Shown in pieces: positions 44,944 to 54,550 of a stretch of DNA of 64,000 nt (positions are counted from its first letter, which is position 1; each line of letters opens with the position of its first letter). Source of the stretch: Gammaproteobacteria bacterium (lineage in GTDB: Bacteria > Pseudomonadota > Gammaproteobacteria > Xanthomonadales > Wenzhouxiangellaceae); assembly GCA_021772975.1 (NCBI GenBank), contig JAJFKY010000014.1, forward strand, positions 1 through 64,000, given 5' to 3'. The position numbers were made by a program, and so were the translations under genes. A model generated the notes under the pieces. It was not told the origin of the DNA, made no database searches, and saw only the letters and a list, made by a program, of their open reading frames with translations.

Positions 44944-45342
44944 CTGGCTGGAGCAGCAGTAAAATTTATCCCTTTGTCCACAGTGAAAACGCTGGCTAAG
45001 TTGAGCAGCGGTTTCTGGCATCTTGTCTCCTACATGGAGATATAGGCTGGGATAAAATCCCAGCTATGACACCGCCCGATAACCTGGAATATTCGAGCCA
45101 AAACCCGGCCACATCTGCCGGGATTACGCGCAGCGCACTGGACCAGCACGATTATGAAAGTCATTGCCCATACAAATCATTGCCTGTTAAAGCAATTGAT
45201 AAACACCCGAAAAACCTAATCCCGACATTCCGCGACCTTTTTCGCCACTCCGGCATCTATTTAATAACCACAAAGCCATTCGAGCGGTATTTTGAGCGCA
45301 GAGCCATTATCAACTGAGCAGACCGAGCAGCAGGAGCGGGAC
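44944..45342. other. Leader/promoter region of the ECF sigma operon
   Basis: About 400 bp without a supported gene. A hairpin (GCTGGGA, loop TAAAA, TCCCAGC) lies at 45046-45064 and may end transcription of the propeller gene. The sigma-operon promoter should lie to its right; no ECF-type -35/-10 pair could be assigned. An 83-codon frame at 45066-45317 has no domain or ribosome site. Confidence 0.4.
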
Positions 45343-45960
45343 ATGATTTTTCAGGCTCAAGTTGGTGATCAGGCAGCCATGCAGTGGTTGTATCAGGCTT
45401 ATATCCAGCGTGTTTACAGCCTGGCTTACCGGTTGCTGTGCCATCAGGCGGATGCCCAGGATGTGATGCAGGATGCCTTCGTGAAGTGTTTTAAGTGTCT
45501 GCATCAATACCGTGGAGATGCGCCGTTCTGGAGTTGGCTGCGGCAGATCGTGAGCACCACGGCGCTGATGCATATGCGCGGCAATAAGCGGCGTGGCGCG
45601 CAGCTGGGGGTTGATGAGGTGGTGGGGGAACCCGCCCTGGTCAGTCCGCAGCGGGCCGGCCATGCTGCCGCCCAGGCGGAGCTGGAGGCAGCCTTAAGCT
45701 GCCTGCCGGATCTGAGCCGGATGGTGGTGTGGCTGTATCATGTGGAAGGCCATACCCATGCCGAAATTGCCCAATCACTCGGGCGGTCGGTGAGTTTCTC
45801 CAAATCCCGCCTGGCGCGCGCCCAGGTCCAGTTGCGCCAGATACTGAATGCCGAGCCGCTGATTGATGGCCGTGCGTCAACAGCAGCCAGAACCACCCCT
45901 GACCGAAGCACTGTTAATCCGGGCGGTGCAAGCGGCGTATTGTTCGAGGCAAATCAATGA
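45343..45960 (+). CDS. ECF-type RNA polymerase sigma factor
   Basis: The 205-residue protein has sigma-70 region 2 (LYQAYIQRVYSLAYRLL, then DAQDVMQDAFVKCFKCL and FWSWLRQIVST) and region 4 (LSCLPDLSRMVVWLYHVEG, HTHAEIAQSLGRSVSFSKSR). The linker and the C-terminal tail are Ala-rich. It is coupled to the next gene by an ATGA overlap, the usual layout for a sigma factor and its anti-sigma. AGGAG stands 6 bp before the ATG at 45343; an in-frame TTG at 45292 is less likely. Confidence 0.88.
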   Translation: MIFQAQVGDQAAMQWLYQAYIQRVYSLAYRLLCHQADAQDVMQDAFVKCFKCLHQYRGDAPFWSWLRQIVSTTALMHMRGNKRRGAQLGVDEVVGEPALVSPQRAGHAAAQAELEAALSCLPDLSRMVVWLYHVEGHTHAEIAQSLGRSVSFSKSRLARAQVQLRQILNAEPLIDGRASTAARTTPDRSTVNPGGASGVLFEANQ

Positions 45961-46613
45961 ACAAAGCTTTATCAGAACAACTGAATGATTTTATGCACAG
46001 CGCTGACGAACTGCAGTCGCAGCGTGCCCTGCGCGCAGCCCTGCGCGCCTTGCCAGCGGTTGATGCCCCGTCGGGCGAGCCTGGCTGGCAGCAGATTCAG
46101 AACCGCTTGTCGGCTAGCCAGGACAAGCATCAGAACAGCTCGCGGTATCGCACCGGCTGGTTGCGCAGGGAGGAATGGATGGGGCTTGCCGCGGTATTGA
46201 TCCTGACGGTATTGGTGATGTTTTCCCGTCCGGTGGCTGAGCAGGGGCTGGGTGAAGAGCAGCTGGCCGGGCAGCAGCATGAGTTACAGGAATGGGTGGC
46301 CCATTCCCAGCAATTGGAAAATCATCTGCGGATGCTGCGCCAACTGGATTCCAGTCAGGTGATATCGGGCCAGCAGGCGATTACTGTCGATGAGCTGGAA
46401 CGCATGATCGGTCTGGTTGACCTGCAATTGGCTGCTGCTGAAATAGCCCGGGGACAGGCAGGCGGCGATCCATTGTTTGTGTATGAGAGCACCGGCTTAT
46501 GGCAACAGCGGGTGCTGCTGCTCAGTGAACTGCTGGCCAATGAGTTTGGCGAAAGCGTCTCCGTTATAGCCGAAGATGCCGTGTTTGCGGAAACCGCCAG
46601 TCAACAGATTTAG
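45957..46613 (+). CDS. Putative membrane anti-sigma factor
   Basis: The 218-residue product has a cytoplasmic N-terminus (about 1-74) rich in Ala, Gln and Arg, one transmembrane helix (GLAAVLILTVLVMFSR, near 78-93) and a helical periplasmic domain of about 120 residues with heptad pattern (QQHELQEWVAHSQQLENHLRML). That topology and the overlap with the sigma gene argue for an anti-sigma factor that holds the sigma factor at the membrane. No zinc-binding HxxxCxxC motif is present. Downstream lies a PDZ protein. Confidence 0.7.
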   Translation: MNKALSEQLNDFMHSADELQSQRALRAALRALPAVDAPSGEPGWQQIQNRLSASQDKHQNSSRYRTGWLRREEWMGLAAVLILTVLVMFSRPVAEQGLGEEQLAGQQHELQEWVAHSQQLENHLRMLRQLDSSQVISGQQAITVDELERMIGLVDLQLAAAEIARGQAGGDPLFVYESTGLWQQRVLLLSELLANEFGESVSVIAEDAVFAETASQQI

Positions 46614-46692
46614 CACCAGTGTACCGGCATCAGCCGGACACCGCCATGAACTTATTGAACATATTGAACATATTGAAGTTGAGGATAAAGCT

Positions 46693-48042
46693 ATGAAAAC
46701 CATGATGACATTGCTGCTGGGTTTGCTGTTGATCAGCGCTTCGGCCGGTTTATCGGCACAGGATACTGAACAGCAGGATCAGCAGCAGTTGCGAGCGGTG
46801 CAGCAGCTTGAGGCGGTGCGCATGGAGCAGGCCCGGCAGCTTCACGAGCAGGCCAGGGTCAGGCACGAACACACGCGTCAGCAGGCACGACCAGCAGCGG
46901 TGGTAAGCGTACAGAATGCGGAAGTTGTGCGTGAGCGTGCGGTGCGCGACCGCAGAGAATACCAGCTGGCCCGTCAGGAATTGCAGGAGGCTGCCCGCAA
47001 AGTGGCGGAAATATCAGCGCAAATCAGTCCCGCGCGTGGTTATGCTTTCCGGTTTTTAACCGATGCCAACCGTGCCATGCTGGGGGTCAGCATTTCTCAT
47101 GATGATGATATATCCGGGGTCAGGATTAATTCAGTCAGCCCTGGCGGCCCGGCTGAACAGGCTGGCCTGCAGGCCAACGACGTGTTGTTGGCGATCAATG
47201 CCGTGCGTCTGGATGATGATGAGCTGGACAGCCCCGCCGAGACCGTGTTTGAAGTGATGTCAGAGTTGGAACCTGGTGAGGAAGTTACGCTGGAGTATGC
47301 ACGTGATGGCGCCATTGCCAACGCAACGGTGATGGCCGAGCGCCGGCCGCCGCATGCGTTTGCCCCGCTGGCGCCGATGGCGCCGCTACCGCCAGGCGTG
47401 CCGTCGTTCGGTCAGCATTCACGCCGACTGGTGCATGCCTTGCACGGCGGATTTTCCGGCGGTTTGGAACTGGTCAGCCTGAATCCTGATCTGGGTCGCT
47501 ACTTCGGCACCAGTGAAGGCCTGTTGGTGGTCAGTGTTCCGGAAGACTTTCCCGCCGAAGTGCGCGGTGGTGACGTGCTGTTGTCTATTGATGGTCGGGA
47601 ACCGGCTGATCCACAGCATGCATTCCGTATTCTGCGCTCCTACCAAACCGGAGAAAACGTGACCCTGGATATACTGCGTGACCACGATCAGCTGAGTATC
47701 AGTTTTGCGGTGCCGGAAAACGATGACCCGCTGCACAGCCTGAGCATGCTCAAGGGACGGGACGCCTTCCAGGTTCTGGGTGGCTTGAAGGACCTTGATC
47801 TGGACAATATCCGGATCAAAGGTTTACAGGGGTTACAGAATCTGAATCTCGAAGATATGCAAAGCCTGCATATTCTGAAAGGTCTGCCTGAAGCATTGCA
47901 GAATGATTTTGAAATATTAATGGAAGACGGCTTTATCAACGGCTTTCATTTTGAATTCAGCACCGATGATGAAGTATCGCCGACGCCACAGAGCGAGTTG
48001 GAGCGGGTTGAACAAAAGCTTGAACAGGAGTCGATTATCTAA
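46693..48042 (+). CDS. Exported protein with two PDZ domains and a coiled coil
   Basis: The 449-residue product has a signal peptide (LLLGLLLISASAGLSAQ) and a Gln/Arg/Glu coiled coil (about 25-110). PDZ1 (about 125-215) includes LGVSISHDDDISGV and SPGGPAEQAGLQANDVLLAI. A Pro-rich linker leads to PDZ2 (about 270-350: EGLLVVSVPEDFPAEVRGGDVLLSI). A C-terminal stretch has leucine-rich repeat-like steps (GLKDLDLDNI, GLQGLQNLNLEDM). No protease triad or trypsin fold is present. It follows the anti-sigma gene by 79 bp, so it probably senses unfolded or peptide ligands and relays this to the anti-sigma protein. ATG 46693 is chosen because the signal peptide starts there. Confidence 0.75.
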   Translation: MKTMMTLLLGLLLISASAGLSAQDTEQQDQQQLRAVQQLEAVRMEQARQLHEQARVRHEHTRQQARPAAVVSVQNAEVVRERAVRDRREYQLARQELQEAARKVAEISAQISPARGYAFRFLTDANRAMLGVSISHDDDISGVRINSVSPGGPAEQAGLQANDVLLAINAVRLDDDELDSPAETVFEVMSELEPGEEVTLEYARDGAIANATVMAERRPPHAFAPLAPMAPLPPGVPSFGQHSRRLVHALHGGFSGGLELVSLNPDLGRYFGTSEGLLVVSVPEDFPAEVRGGDVLLSIDGREPADPQHAFRILRSYQTGENVTLDILRDHDQLSISFAVPENDDPLHSLSMLKGRDAFQVLGGLKDLDLDNIRIKGLQGLQNLNLEDMQSLHILKGLPEALQNDFEILMEDGFINGFHFEFSTDDEVSPTPQSELERVEQKLEQESII

Positions 48043-48907: not shown

Positions 48908-49324
48908 ATGACAACGGAAACACTAACCGGCAGTTGCCTGTGTGGCGCGGTGGCCTATGAAGTCAAAGGCGAACCTGCGAAATTTTATCATTGCCATTGT
49001 CAACGCTGCCGCAAGGCCAGTGGCACCGGGCATTGCAGCAACATCATCATACCCGAAGCAGATAGCATTACCTGGACCCGCGGGCAGGACCAATTGACGC
49101 GTTATAAGGTGCCTGAAGCTATTCGCTTTTCGACCTGTTTCTGTAACACTTGTGGCAGCCTGATGCCGCGGGAAATACCGGGTGGCAAGATGGTGATTAT
49201 TCCAGCCGGTTCGCTGGATTCGCAACCCGCTATCAAGCCACAGGCACGGATATTCTGGGATTCACGCAGCGACTGGTCCTGCAGTGAAGCCCAGGTGCCG
49301 GTGTTTGCCGAATACCCGGACTAG
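48908..49324 (+). CDS. GFA-domain protein (glutathione-dependent formaldehyde-activating type)
   Basis: The 138-residue protein has the zinc-binding GFA fold: CLCGAVAYEVKG with CxCG near the N-terminus, then FYHCHCQRCRKASGTGH, and FCNTCGSLMP near the C-terminus. All cysteine pairs that bind the two zinc ions are present. Members of this large family do not all act on S-hydroxymethylglutathione, so the substrate is open. It begins at the ATG at 48908 and has no operon partner. Confidence 0.87.
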   Translation: MTTETLTGSCLCGAVAYEVKGEPAKFYHCHCQRCRKASGTGHCSNIIIPEADSITWTRGQDQLTRYKVPEAIRFSTCFCNTCGSLMPREIPGGKMVIIPAGSLDSQPAIKPQARIFWDSRSDWSCSEAQVPVFAEYPD

Positions 49325-49350: not shown

Positions 49351-50589
49351 TTACGGGTATTTTTTAACTGTGCGTGGAAATGAAATCCCGAGCAGCATTA
49401 ATAGCGCTGCCATAATCAGCATGCCAGAAATACCAAGGCCGGGGACGGGCGAAGCTGGCGGAATGTTCAGACCGTCATAACGAAACACGGTAATGCCGTT
49501 GAATCCGCCAAAGTATATCAACGCCTGATCAGCGTTTATCGCAAGTGCCGCATCTCCGTTAGGGCGAAAGGGCAGGTTATTGACGATGGCATCTTCCAGT
49601 AATACCGCTTCATTGGCTTCGGTCAACCGGTACACTCTAAACGGATTGGCAGCAATAAAAAGCCGATCCTGATCAAACAGCAGCATGTTATCTGCTCTGG
49701 CACCGTTGGTTCCGAAGGTGACTAAAGCGATTGTAAAATCCGATAAATCACCGCTGTCAAGGTTGACGGAAAAAATAGACAGCGCGGGTGAAGGCGGGTC
49801 CCCGGTGAAGACGCTGGGCACAAATACCTGGCTGCTGTCCAGGGAGAACAACGGTGTCTGAGATTGAATAAAAGGACTTTGACCGGTTGGCCCCGCTCTG
49901 GATAATCTGCCATCCGCCATTCGATTAAACAAAATAAACTCTGTAAAGATGATGATATTGAGTGAGCTGACGCGGCGCTCAGCGATATATATAAAATTCT
50001 CGTTTGGGCTGAGGAATAAAGTGGCTGCCTGTTCAGCGTACATTAGCGTTTGCTGCAGCGATAATGTGCCGTCAGCGCTGGCTATCGTAAATACTCAAAC
50101 GGTATAGTTTGGTGTTTGTCCCGTCGTGCTGGTTATCAGGTACAGGTTCAGATTGTCCAGGCTGAGCACAAAAGTAATGATGTCCTGATCGGGAGGCAAT
50201 TGAGAGCTGTCTGCGTCGATCAGTGTCAGGCTTCCGCTAACCATGTCTCTGCTATACAGCGCCAGACCATCGGAGCCAAAGCCGCCGGCATAGAAAAACT
50301 GTCCATTGGCGCTCAAGTGTATAGTGGTATTTGGCGCGTCTGATGCCAGTCCGGTAACTTCGCTGTCGATACTGACAAGACTGCCGGTGTTCTGATCAAT
50401 CGAAAAGGCGCCGATCAGTGCTTCAGTGCCGCTGACGGTATACAGATGTTGTCCGTCATTGCTGATTTCGAAGCTGCTGACGTCTGAGCTTGCCGGCTGC
50501 TCGCCAATGAACTCTGCCGCGGTCAGTACCTGTGCTGAACCTGATGCTGATACCAGCGCGCATAGCAATAATAAAAGTAACCGCATCAA
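49351..50589 (-). pseudogene. Exported beta-propeller protein split by an in-frame TGA
   Basis: Two open stretches in the same frame, 50095-50589 (signal peptide LLLLLLCALVSASGSAQ plus strands) and 49351-50043, are separated by a TGA at 50095-50097. The 17 codons between them read on sensibly (VFTIASADGTLSLQQTL), and strand-turn units such as GQHLYTVSGTEALIGAFSID and FFYAGGFGSDGLALYSRD continue after the stop. The whole would be about 410 residues: a seven-bladed lactonase-like propeller with a C-terminal hydrophobic helix and RTVKK tail resembling a sorting signal (PGLGISGMLIMAALL). TGA probably replaced a TGG (Trp) codon. A base-call error is possible. Confidence 0.72.
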
Positions 50590-50870: not shown

Positions 50871-51263
50871 TTAGCGTTTATCAACCGCCCACGCACCCGG
50901 GCCATTGGCAACCACATACAGCATGCCGCCCATCACCGCCAGATTCTTGAGGAAGCCGGACATCTGGTTGATGTCCGCCCAGACGGGGTGGAAAAATATG
51001 TTGATGGGGATAATCAGCAGGAAAATAGCCCACGCCGCCAGGCGGGTCTTAAAGCCTAACAGCAGCATTAAACCACCCCCGGCCTCGATCAATATGGTCA
51101 GGGCGGCCAGCACATCGGGTAGTGGCAGACCCTTGCTGGCTATTGCGCCCGAGGTGGCGCTGAAACCACCGCCGATAAAACCAAAGGCTTTATCAAAACC
51201 GTAAATAACAAAAATCAGCGCCAGTAAAATCCGACCGATGGCCTGTGTTTTTGAGTGATGCAT
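50871..51263 (-). CDS. DoxX-family membrane protein, copy 1
   Basis: The 130-residue protein has four helices and the DoxX pattern: LLALIFVIYGFDKAFGF, then LPLPDVLAALTILIEAGGGL and LAAWAIFLLIIPINIFFH. DoxX-like proteins are small inner membrane proteins, some linked to redox or sulphur metabolism, most with unknown activity. GGGAG precedes the ATG at 51263. A second DoxX gene lies at 54125. Confidence 0.82.
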   Translation of the reverse strand: MHHSKTQAIGRILLALIFVIYGFDKAFGFIGGGFSATSGAIASKGLPLPDVLAALTILIEAGGGLMLLLGFKTRLAAWAIFLLIIPINIFFHPVWADINQMSGFLKNLAVMGGMLYVVANGPGAWAVDKR

Positions 51264-52931: not shown

Positions 52932-54128
52932 TCAAAGCTGACTGAAAACCATGTCCCAGAAAGCGGTCGTCAATTGACTGGCGGTACTGTCTTCGGCGTT
53001 CAGCAACAGAGCAAAGCCGATCTTGTGTTGACGGGAAAAAGCGATGTCGGCTCGAAATCCGGATACCCAGCCGCCGTGGTAGATCAATTCCTCCTCACCC
53101 CAGCGATACACCCGCCAGCCTAAACCGTAATGGGCGTCGGTCAGGTGATCGCGCCAGAATTTACGCCGCAAAGCGTTTTTGGTGCTGAGCCGAGGGGCGG
53201 TTACGCTGTCGATAACCGTGTCCGAAATGACGTCGGGATTGGCGCCCAGCTGGGCCTGCAGCCAACGGGCCATATCCAGGATGCTGGCATTGACTCCGGC
53301 CGCCGGGGTAATCCGATAGTAAGTCGGCAACACCGGCACTTCCGCCCAGCGTGAGCCGCGCTTGCGGTGTGGCCGGGCATACCCTTCACTGCTTTGCAGG
53401 GCACTCAACCCGACCGAAGCAGTGCGCATATTCAATGGCGTAAAAATCTGTGTATCCAGGTTGTCCGCATAACTGGACTGGCTGACGGACTGGATAGCGG
53501 GTTCGATCAGACTGAACGCCACGTTCTGGTAGGTGTAGCAGCTGCTGGGTGCGCACACCGGCCTTAACTCCGCGAACTTGGGCAGAATCTGCTCGACCGG
53601 TTGACCTGCTTCAATCAGATGGTCATAGGCATGCCCGACGATGCCGGTGCTTTGGCCCAGCAGGTCCTCCAGGGTGATGCGCTGCGTATTACCATTAATC
53701 CGAAAATCCGGAGAATAGCGATTGGCCGGGTCCTGCCAGCTTAATTTGCCCTGTTCCACCAGCAGCGCGGTCAATTCGGCCGCGAAGGTTTTGGAGACCG
53801 AAGCCAGACGGAAGACCGTGTTGGCGGTGACCGGCTGGCCGTTCTTGACAGCGGTTGTGCCGGCGGTTCCCAGGCCGGCAATCGCGGCCGGTGTGACAAT
53901 CACATAGGCGCCGCCGGGAATTCTGGCGGCCTGCAGAGTGGTGTGAAAATATTTTTCAAAGTCGCGGCCCAGTTGCCGGTCAAACACCGGCGCTGCAGCG
54001 GGTGCCTTAGTGACCAGCAGCGGAGCGGCTGAATCAGCGCACAGTTGAGCGGCTGCGGTCCAGCACAGGCAGCCGCACAACAAACGGGTGATAGATTTTA
54101 AATCAGTGGGCATTCTGGACAGGCTCAT
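52932..54128 (-). CDS. Exported class C beta-lactamase-family serine hydrolase
   Basis: The 398-residue product has a signal peptide (LLCGCLCWTAAAQLCA) and the PF00144 fold with its three motifs: SVSK (nucleophile serine and lysine, in FRLASVSKTFAAEL), YQN for the Tyr-x-Asn motif, and HGG replacing KTG (IYHGGWVSGFRA). Families with HGG are mostly esterases or D-amino peptidases, not antibiotic hydrolases. It overlaps the second DoxX gene by the ATGA of its proposed start (ATG at 54128), implying coupled translation; ATG 54113 is an alternative. Confidence 0.82.
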   Translation of the reverse strand: MSLSRMPTDLKSITRLLCGCLCWTAAAQLCADSAAPLLVTKAPAAAPVFDRQLGRDFEKYFHTTLQAARIPGGAYVIVTPAAIAGLGTAGTTAVKNGQPVTANTVFRLASVSKTFAAELTALLVEQGKLSWQDPANRYSPDFRINGNTQRITLEDLLGQSTGIVGHAYDHLIEAGQPVEQILPKFAELRPVCAPSSCYTYQNVAFSLIEPAIQSVSQSSYADNLDTQIFTPLNMRTASVGLSALQSSEGYARPHRKRGSRWAEVPVLPTYYRITPAAGVNASILDMARWLQAQLGANPDVISDTVIDSVTAPRLSTKNALRRKFWRDHLTDAHYGLGWRVYRWGEEELIYHGGWVSGFRADIAFSRQHKIGFALLLNAEDSTASQLTTAFWDMVFSQL

Positions 54129-54550
54129 TCCGGTTTGTCGAGGCTCAACCAATCGTATTGGCAGGGTATCGCCAGCACAATGAAAATCAATATCAAACGG
54201 GTAAAGGTGTGTCCGGCGATATCAAATAAGGGTTGCTGCAGGGTGTGTCCGTAGGTAGTAATCAGCAGCAGCAGGCCAAAGCTGATCAGAACCCAGCGGA
54301 CATTAAACCCGATCAGCAACATCGCGCCCCCGGCCAGTTCCCAGTAAGGTATGACCTGACCTAAAATCATCAACAGCCATTCCGGAATCCAGTGTTCGGC
54401 AAAACCATCCACAAAAAACTGTTGTGCATGGTTACCGCTGCCCAATACAAACACTTTCCAGTAACCCGCCATACCGAACAGAATGCCCAGCATCGAACGC
54501 GCCAGAAAACGAATGGCGGCGAGATTGTCGCTGGCAATATTCTGATACAC
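54125..54550 (-). CDS. DoxX-family membrane protein, copy 2
   Basis: The 141-residue four-helix protein matches DoxX (RFLARSMLGILFGMAGYWKV, PEWLLMILGQVIPYWELAGGAMLLIGF, LLLLITTYGHTL). It starts with GTG preceded by GGGAG. It overlaps the following beta-lactamase-fold hydrolase gene, so both are translated from one transcript. The pairing suggests that the DoxX protein and the exported hydrolase work in the same envelope process. It is paralogous to the protein at 50871. Confidence 0.82.
   Translation of the reverse strand: MYQNIASDNLAAIRFLARSMLGILFGMAGYWKVFVLGSGNHAQQFFVDGFAEHWIPEWLLMILGQVIPYWELAGGAMLLIGFNVRWVLISFGLLLLITTYGHTLQQPLFDIAGHTFTRLILIFIVLAIPCQYDWLSLDKPE

Follow-up and report, generated by a model that had tools for sequence, protein, structure and literature searches.

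How a single stop codon comes to lie inside an otherwise open bacterial gene is the question raised by a locus in the window (the whole stretch of 64,000 nucleotides that was analysed), where one minus-strand frame running from ATG 50586 to TAA 49351 (49351..50586) holds 411 codons before its final stop and contains a single in-frame TGA (50097-50095; codon 164 of 411, counted from ATG 50586). The part upstream of the TGA (163 codons; 50098..50586, minus strand) encodes a signal-like N-terminal helix and about three blades of a beta-propeller and matches Lactonase PF10282 with an E-value of 3.5e-08; the open reading frame that begins at the next ATG, 50043 (230 codons; 49354..50043, minus strand), carries the remaining blades and a C-terminal tail, and by itself matches PF10282 at an E-value of 0.32 only. 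Exactly 17 sense codons separate the TGA from this ATG. Translation more likely starts at ATG 50586 than at TTG 50589, itself a possible start, because the motif AAGGG, a likely ribosome-binding site, lies at 50596-50592 (minus strand) and this is also where the same-genus gene begins. Promoter and terminator scans performed no better than shuffles.

The 247 codons 3′ of the TGA contain no stop, a stretch that remained open in none of 20,000 dinucleotide shuffles, and each of its other five frames holds from 6 to 24 stops. Codon-usage scores are positive on both sides (0.166 bits per codon before the TGA and 0.078 after it), the downstream score exceeding those of the other frames of the same stretch, and both lie below the scores of most of the 14 long open reading frames of the window (-0.10 to 0.43). 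As the downstream frame is open in comparison with the shuffles, and both halves match one continuous gene of the same genus, the locus is a truly interrupted gene rather than two open reading frames lined up by chance.

A search of 61 genomes, the window's own included, returned matches in 19. The one further genome of this genus (G001; MAG OFTM154, Gammaproteobacteria, contig JAJFKX010000034.1) carries the orthologue as a single intact frame of 414 amino acids, flanked by the same genes as in the window, namely a DoxX-family gene upstream (50871..51263, minus strand) and a convergent GFA-family gene downstream (48908..49324, plus strand). An uninterrupted frame is found in all four relatives that cover the TGA site, i.e., G001, two copies in G003, and a G004 copy that is cut by a contig end yet includes the site; a further relative in G008 stops at a contig end short of the site and is not counted among the four. 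The initial annotation, which described one propeller gene in two same-frame halves, 17 sense codons apart and intact but for one TGA, is thus borne out by the coordinates, the open downstream frame and the unbroken orthologue, and the two separate genes that it envisaged in relatives as a counter-argument are seen in none of the four. Its proposal that the TGA replaces a TGG is not supported: in the aligned position the four relatives have Tyr, Leu, Tyr and Leu, never Trp, and none of them has a TGA there. Identity across this alignment is 19-41%, a local divergence too high for the codon that preceded the TGA to be named.

Scanning of genome contigs with the window protein (P0001) found no relative, and scanning with the G001 protein gave 31 loci, all of them distant apart from the gene of G001 itself. 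Alignment A2 comprises nine rows, P0001 and eight of these 31 loci, picked for frames of roughly single-propeller length. No plasmid match to the propeller was obtained. A redundant paralogue was rejected as an explanation, since the window's own genome has no second propeller of the family at E <= 0.001 and its three other matches cover the C-terminal tail only. Elsewhere in the window, an ECF sigma factor gene, a gene for a 218-aa protein without a Pfam match and a gene for a PDZ-domain protein stand in a row (45292-48042), with counterparts likewise arranged in G001, and two DoxX-family genes lie on the same strand about 3 kb apart (50871-51263 and 54125-54550).

Family and fold were assigned on the protein read through, the TGA being taken as a residue. 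This sequence matches PF10282, the lactonase family of seven-bladed propellers, with 44.3 bits (cut-off 21.7; E-value 1.8e-11), and PDB profiles of solved PGL-type propellers at 3e-19 at best. Against NF008258, the NCBIfam equivalog for true 6-phosphogluconolactonase, the score is far under the curated cut-off (36.2 of 370 bits). In the AlphaFold2 model (mean pLDDT 71, pTM 0.70), 27 consecutive strands lie between an N-terminal and a C-terminal helix, and Foldseek places it with 3fgb (1.1e-11), 3scy, 4qrj and other propellers; the read-through protein is accordingly modelled as a seven-bladed propeller of the PGL/lactonase type. The TGA (position 165 in a count that begins at the TTG) falls within a predicted strand at 162-169, in about the third blade, in a block whose mean pLDDT is 94.

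The C-terminal end (49354..49446, minus strand) combines a VPxL...G motif with a predicted hydrophobic helix and resembles the sorting tails of exosortase H substrates (IPTL/midcut). The genome encodes one exosortase, of type H (XrtH; G000:C15:61164-61598; L150 1480-2043), with a PF09721 match and 197.7 bits against TIGR04177 (cut-off 86). Three other proteins of the genome match the family model only in the tail, and the two examined (L147 and L149) share the VPxL...G pattern of the propeller, which suggests a small set of putative XrtH substrates. Sorting of the propeller itself by exosortase H is put forward as a prediction, since its tail scores under the cut-offs of the curated IPTL-CTERM and midcut models (best midcut_by_XrtH, 12.2 bits against a cut-off of 45). 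A literature search on IPTL-CTERM together with exosortase yielded no paper.

The rate at which the gene changes was compared with that of its surroundings by matching the window against contig C28 of G001, where 72 of 349 open reading frames matched and 32 non-overlapping best pairs were kept; the first 20 kb of the window have no pair on that contig. The propeller is the sole pair with an interior stop and has the lowest identity (35.7%, against 42.9-90.5%); two of the 32 pairs have a stop at the start of the alignment (columns 1 and 3), which was read as a start-codon difference. By this comparison the propeller gene evolves fast amid conserved neighbours. Next to it, the adjacent genes are 70-88% identical and the propeller 36% identical to their same-genus orthologues. 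Three-way counts against the two G003 copies and G004, made before and after the stop, revealed no significantly elevated change in the window copy in any of six tests; the nearest to significance (p = 0.054) was the comparison with one G003 copy after the stop. Residues common to G001 and both G003 copies are kept by the window at 17 of 22 positions before the stop and 21 of 31 after it, and the frame carries no further stop or frameshift. This lack of visible decay fits a young mutation and equally a gene still in use, and the neutral bound set by the lack of further stops is loose, as about 95-129 substitutions could pass at the 5% level. The recent change considered in the initial annotation is therefore compatible with the alignments, in which neither additional lesions nor significant excess change appear.

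Could the TGA be decoded rather than terminate translation? In this DNA it is an ordinary stop, as it ends seven of the 14 long open reading frames of the window. In the organism's own genome, none of nine matches to SelB is over the cut-off (best 99.5 of 242.25 bits), and of ten matches to tRNA-Sec one is just above it (47.7 of 47), a gene that ARAGORN reads as tRNA-Ser (tga). Selenocysteine was therefore rejected, SelB not being over cut-off and tRNA-Sec being absent. All 37 tRNAs of the genome were assigned anticodons by ARAGORN, and none has tca. The single tRNA-Trp is ordinary, with the usual G at position 24, the Hirsh suppressor position, and with an anticodon stem of 5 bp. With no UCA anticodon among the 37 tRNAs and a tRNA-Trp stem of this length, not the 4 bp looked for in a UGA-reading tRNA-Trp, an opal suppressor or a reassigned UGA was likewise rejected; a shortened anticodon stem of tRNA-Trp is the case treated in PMC13092985. 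A hairpin just 3′ of the TGA (z -2.46; as stable in 5 of 200 shuffles) was rejected as a readthrough signal after a scan of the whole gene: among 393 codon-start windows its own is 19th by z and 17th by energy and is thus not distinctive, and in another scan 6 of 197 windows reached -2.4 or less.

Taken together, the locus quite probably records a nonsense mutation of recent date, in an exported beta-propeller's gene that evolves fast and is probably dispensable. One change would have turned codon 164 into TGA, and translation ending there would yield about three of seven blades and lack the C-terminal sorting tail; such a three-blade product would be unlikely to fold. So truncated, the gene would most likely be a pseudogene of recent origin, or an allele that has lost its function in this strain. 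The loss of function, youth and dispensability are expectations from this reasoning.

The competing readings differ in whether the stop exists and in what ribosomes do on reaching it. An error of sequencing or assembly, or a consensus mixed from several strains, over a gene that is really unbroken is rather unlikely: the base rests on a single assembly, change in the gene is not significantly in excess, as expected of an intact one, and its interior stop is the sole one among the 32 compared pairs, yet the assembly is of good quality (24 contigs, completeness 99.9%, contamination 0.13%), the absence of any other interior stop in those pairs means that the region is not error-rich, and long-read errors are mostly indels. 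Functional readthrough, by which some ribosomes would pass the TGA so that a short secreted form is accompanied by a rare longer one that bears the sorting tail, is improbable. The intact frame 3′ of the stop and the adjacent hairpin could speak for it, as could the argument, made in PMC7918605, that numerous bacterial genes with an in-frame stop are not pseudogenes. However, the hairpin is unremarkable within the gene, suppressor and selenocysteine tRNAs are lacking, the TGA is absent from all four relatives covering the site and so is no conserved signal, and a three-blade fragment would be unlikely to fold; the read-through stop entertained in the initial annotation thus receives no backing from tRNAs, SelB or sequence context. 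More specifically, the TGA might act as a leaky switch: translation would mostly end there, a small amount of full-length propeller, exosortase H tail included, would still be produced, and the stop would set how much arrives at the surface; this reading is very improbable.

The least probable reading is a split gene, with each half translated on its own and the two products perhaps joining to form a propeller. It would draw on the ATG 17 codons 3′ of the stop and on both halves being open, but no Shine-Dalgarno-like stretch was seen before ATG 50043, no signal peptide is evident on the downstream half by itself, and each of the four relatives has one gene. For readthrough and the split gene alike, positive support extends as far as the open frame. 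In annotation the locus should be entered as one interrupted gene rather than two hypothetical proteins, and should not be counted as UGA recoding; readthrough, if true, would add one more case to the question of how often bacterial in-frame stops still yield full-length protein.

Among known systems, the in-frame TGA is shared with selenocysteine insertion and UGA-to-Trp recoding, from which the locus differs in that SelB, tRNA-Sec and a tRNA with a UCA anticodon were not found in the genome and the relatives have neither Trp nor TGA at the site. It resembles the bacterial pseudogenes with a single nonsense codon and the in-frame stop polymorphisms covered in PMC7918605, having one in-frame stop, an intact remainder and unbroken relatives; the present locus is known from a single assembly. 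With XrtH substrates bearing IPTL-CTERM-like tails it has in common the VPxL...G motif, the hydrophobic C-terminal helix and an XrtH in the genome, although its tail is below the curated cut-offs and its sorting is predicted only. Finally, in sequence and predicted fold the read-through protein is like the PF10282 lactonase and 6-phosphogluconolactonase-type propellers (PDB 3fgb, 3scy, 4qrj, 6igb and 1ri6), and differs from them in its extra sorting-like C-terminal tail, in the interruption by TGA and in a score far below the 6-phosphogluconolactonase cut-off.
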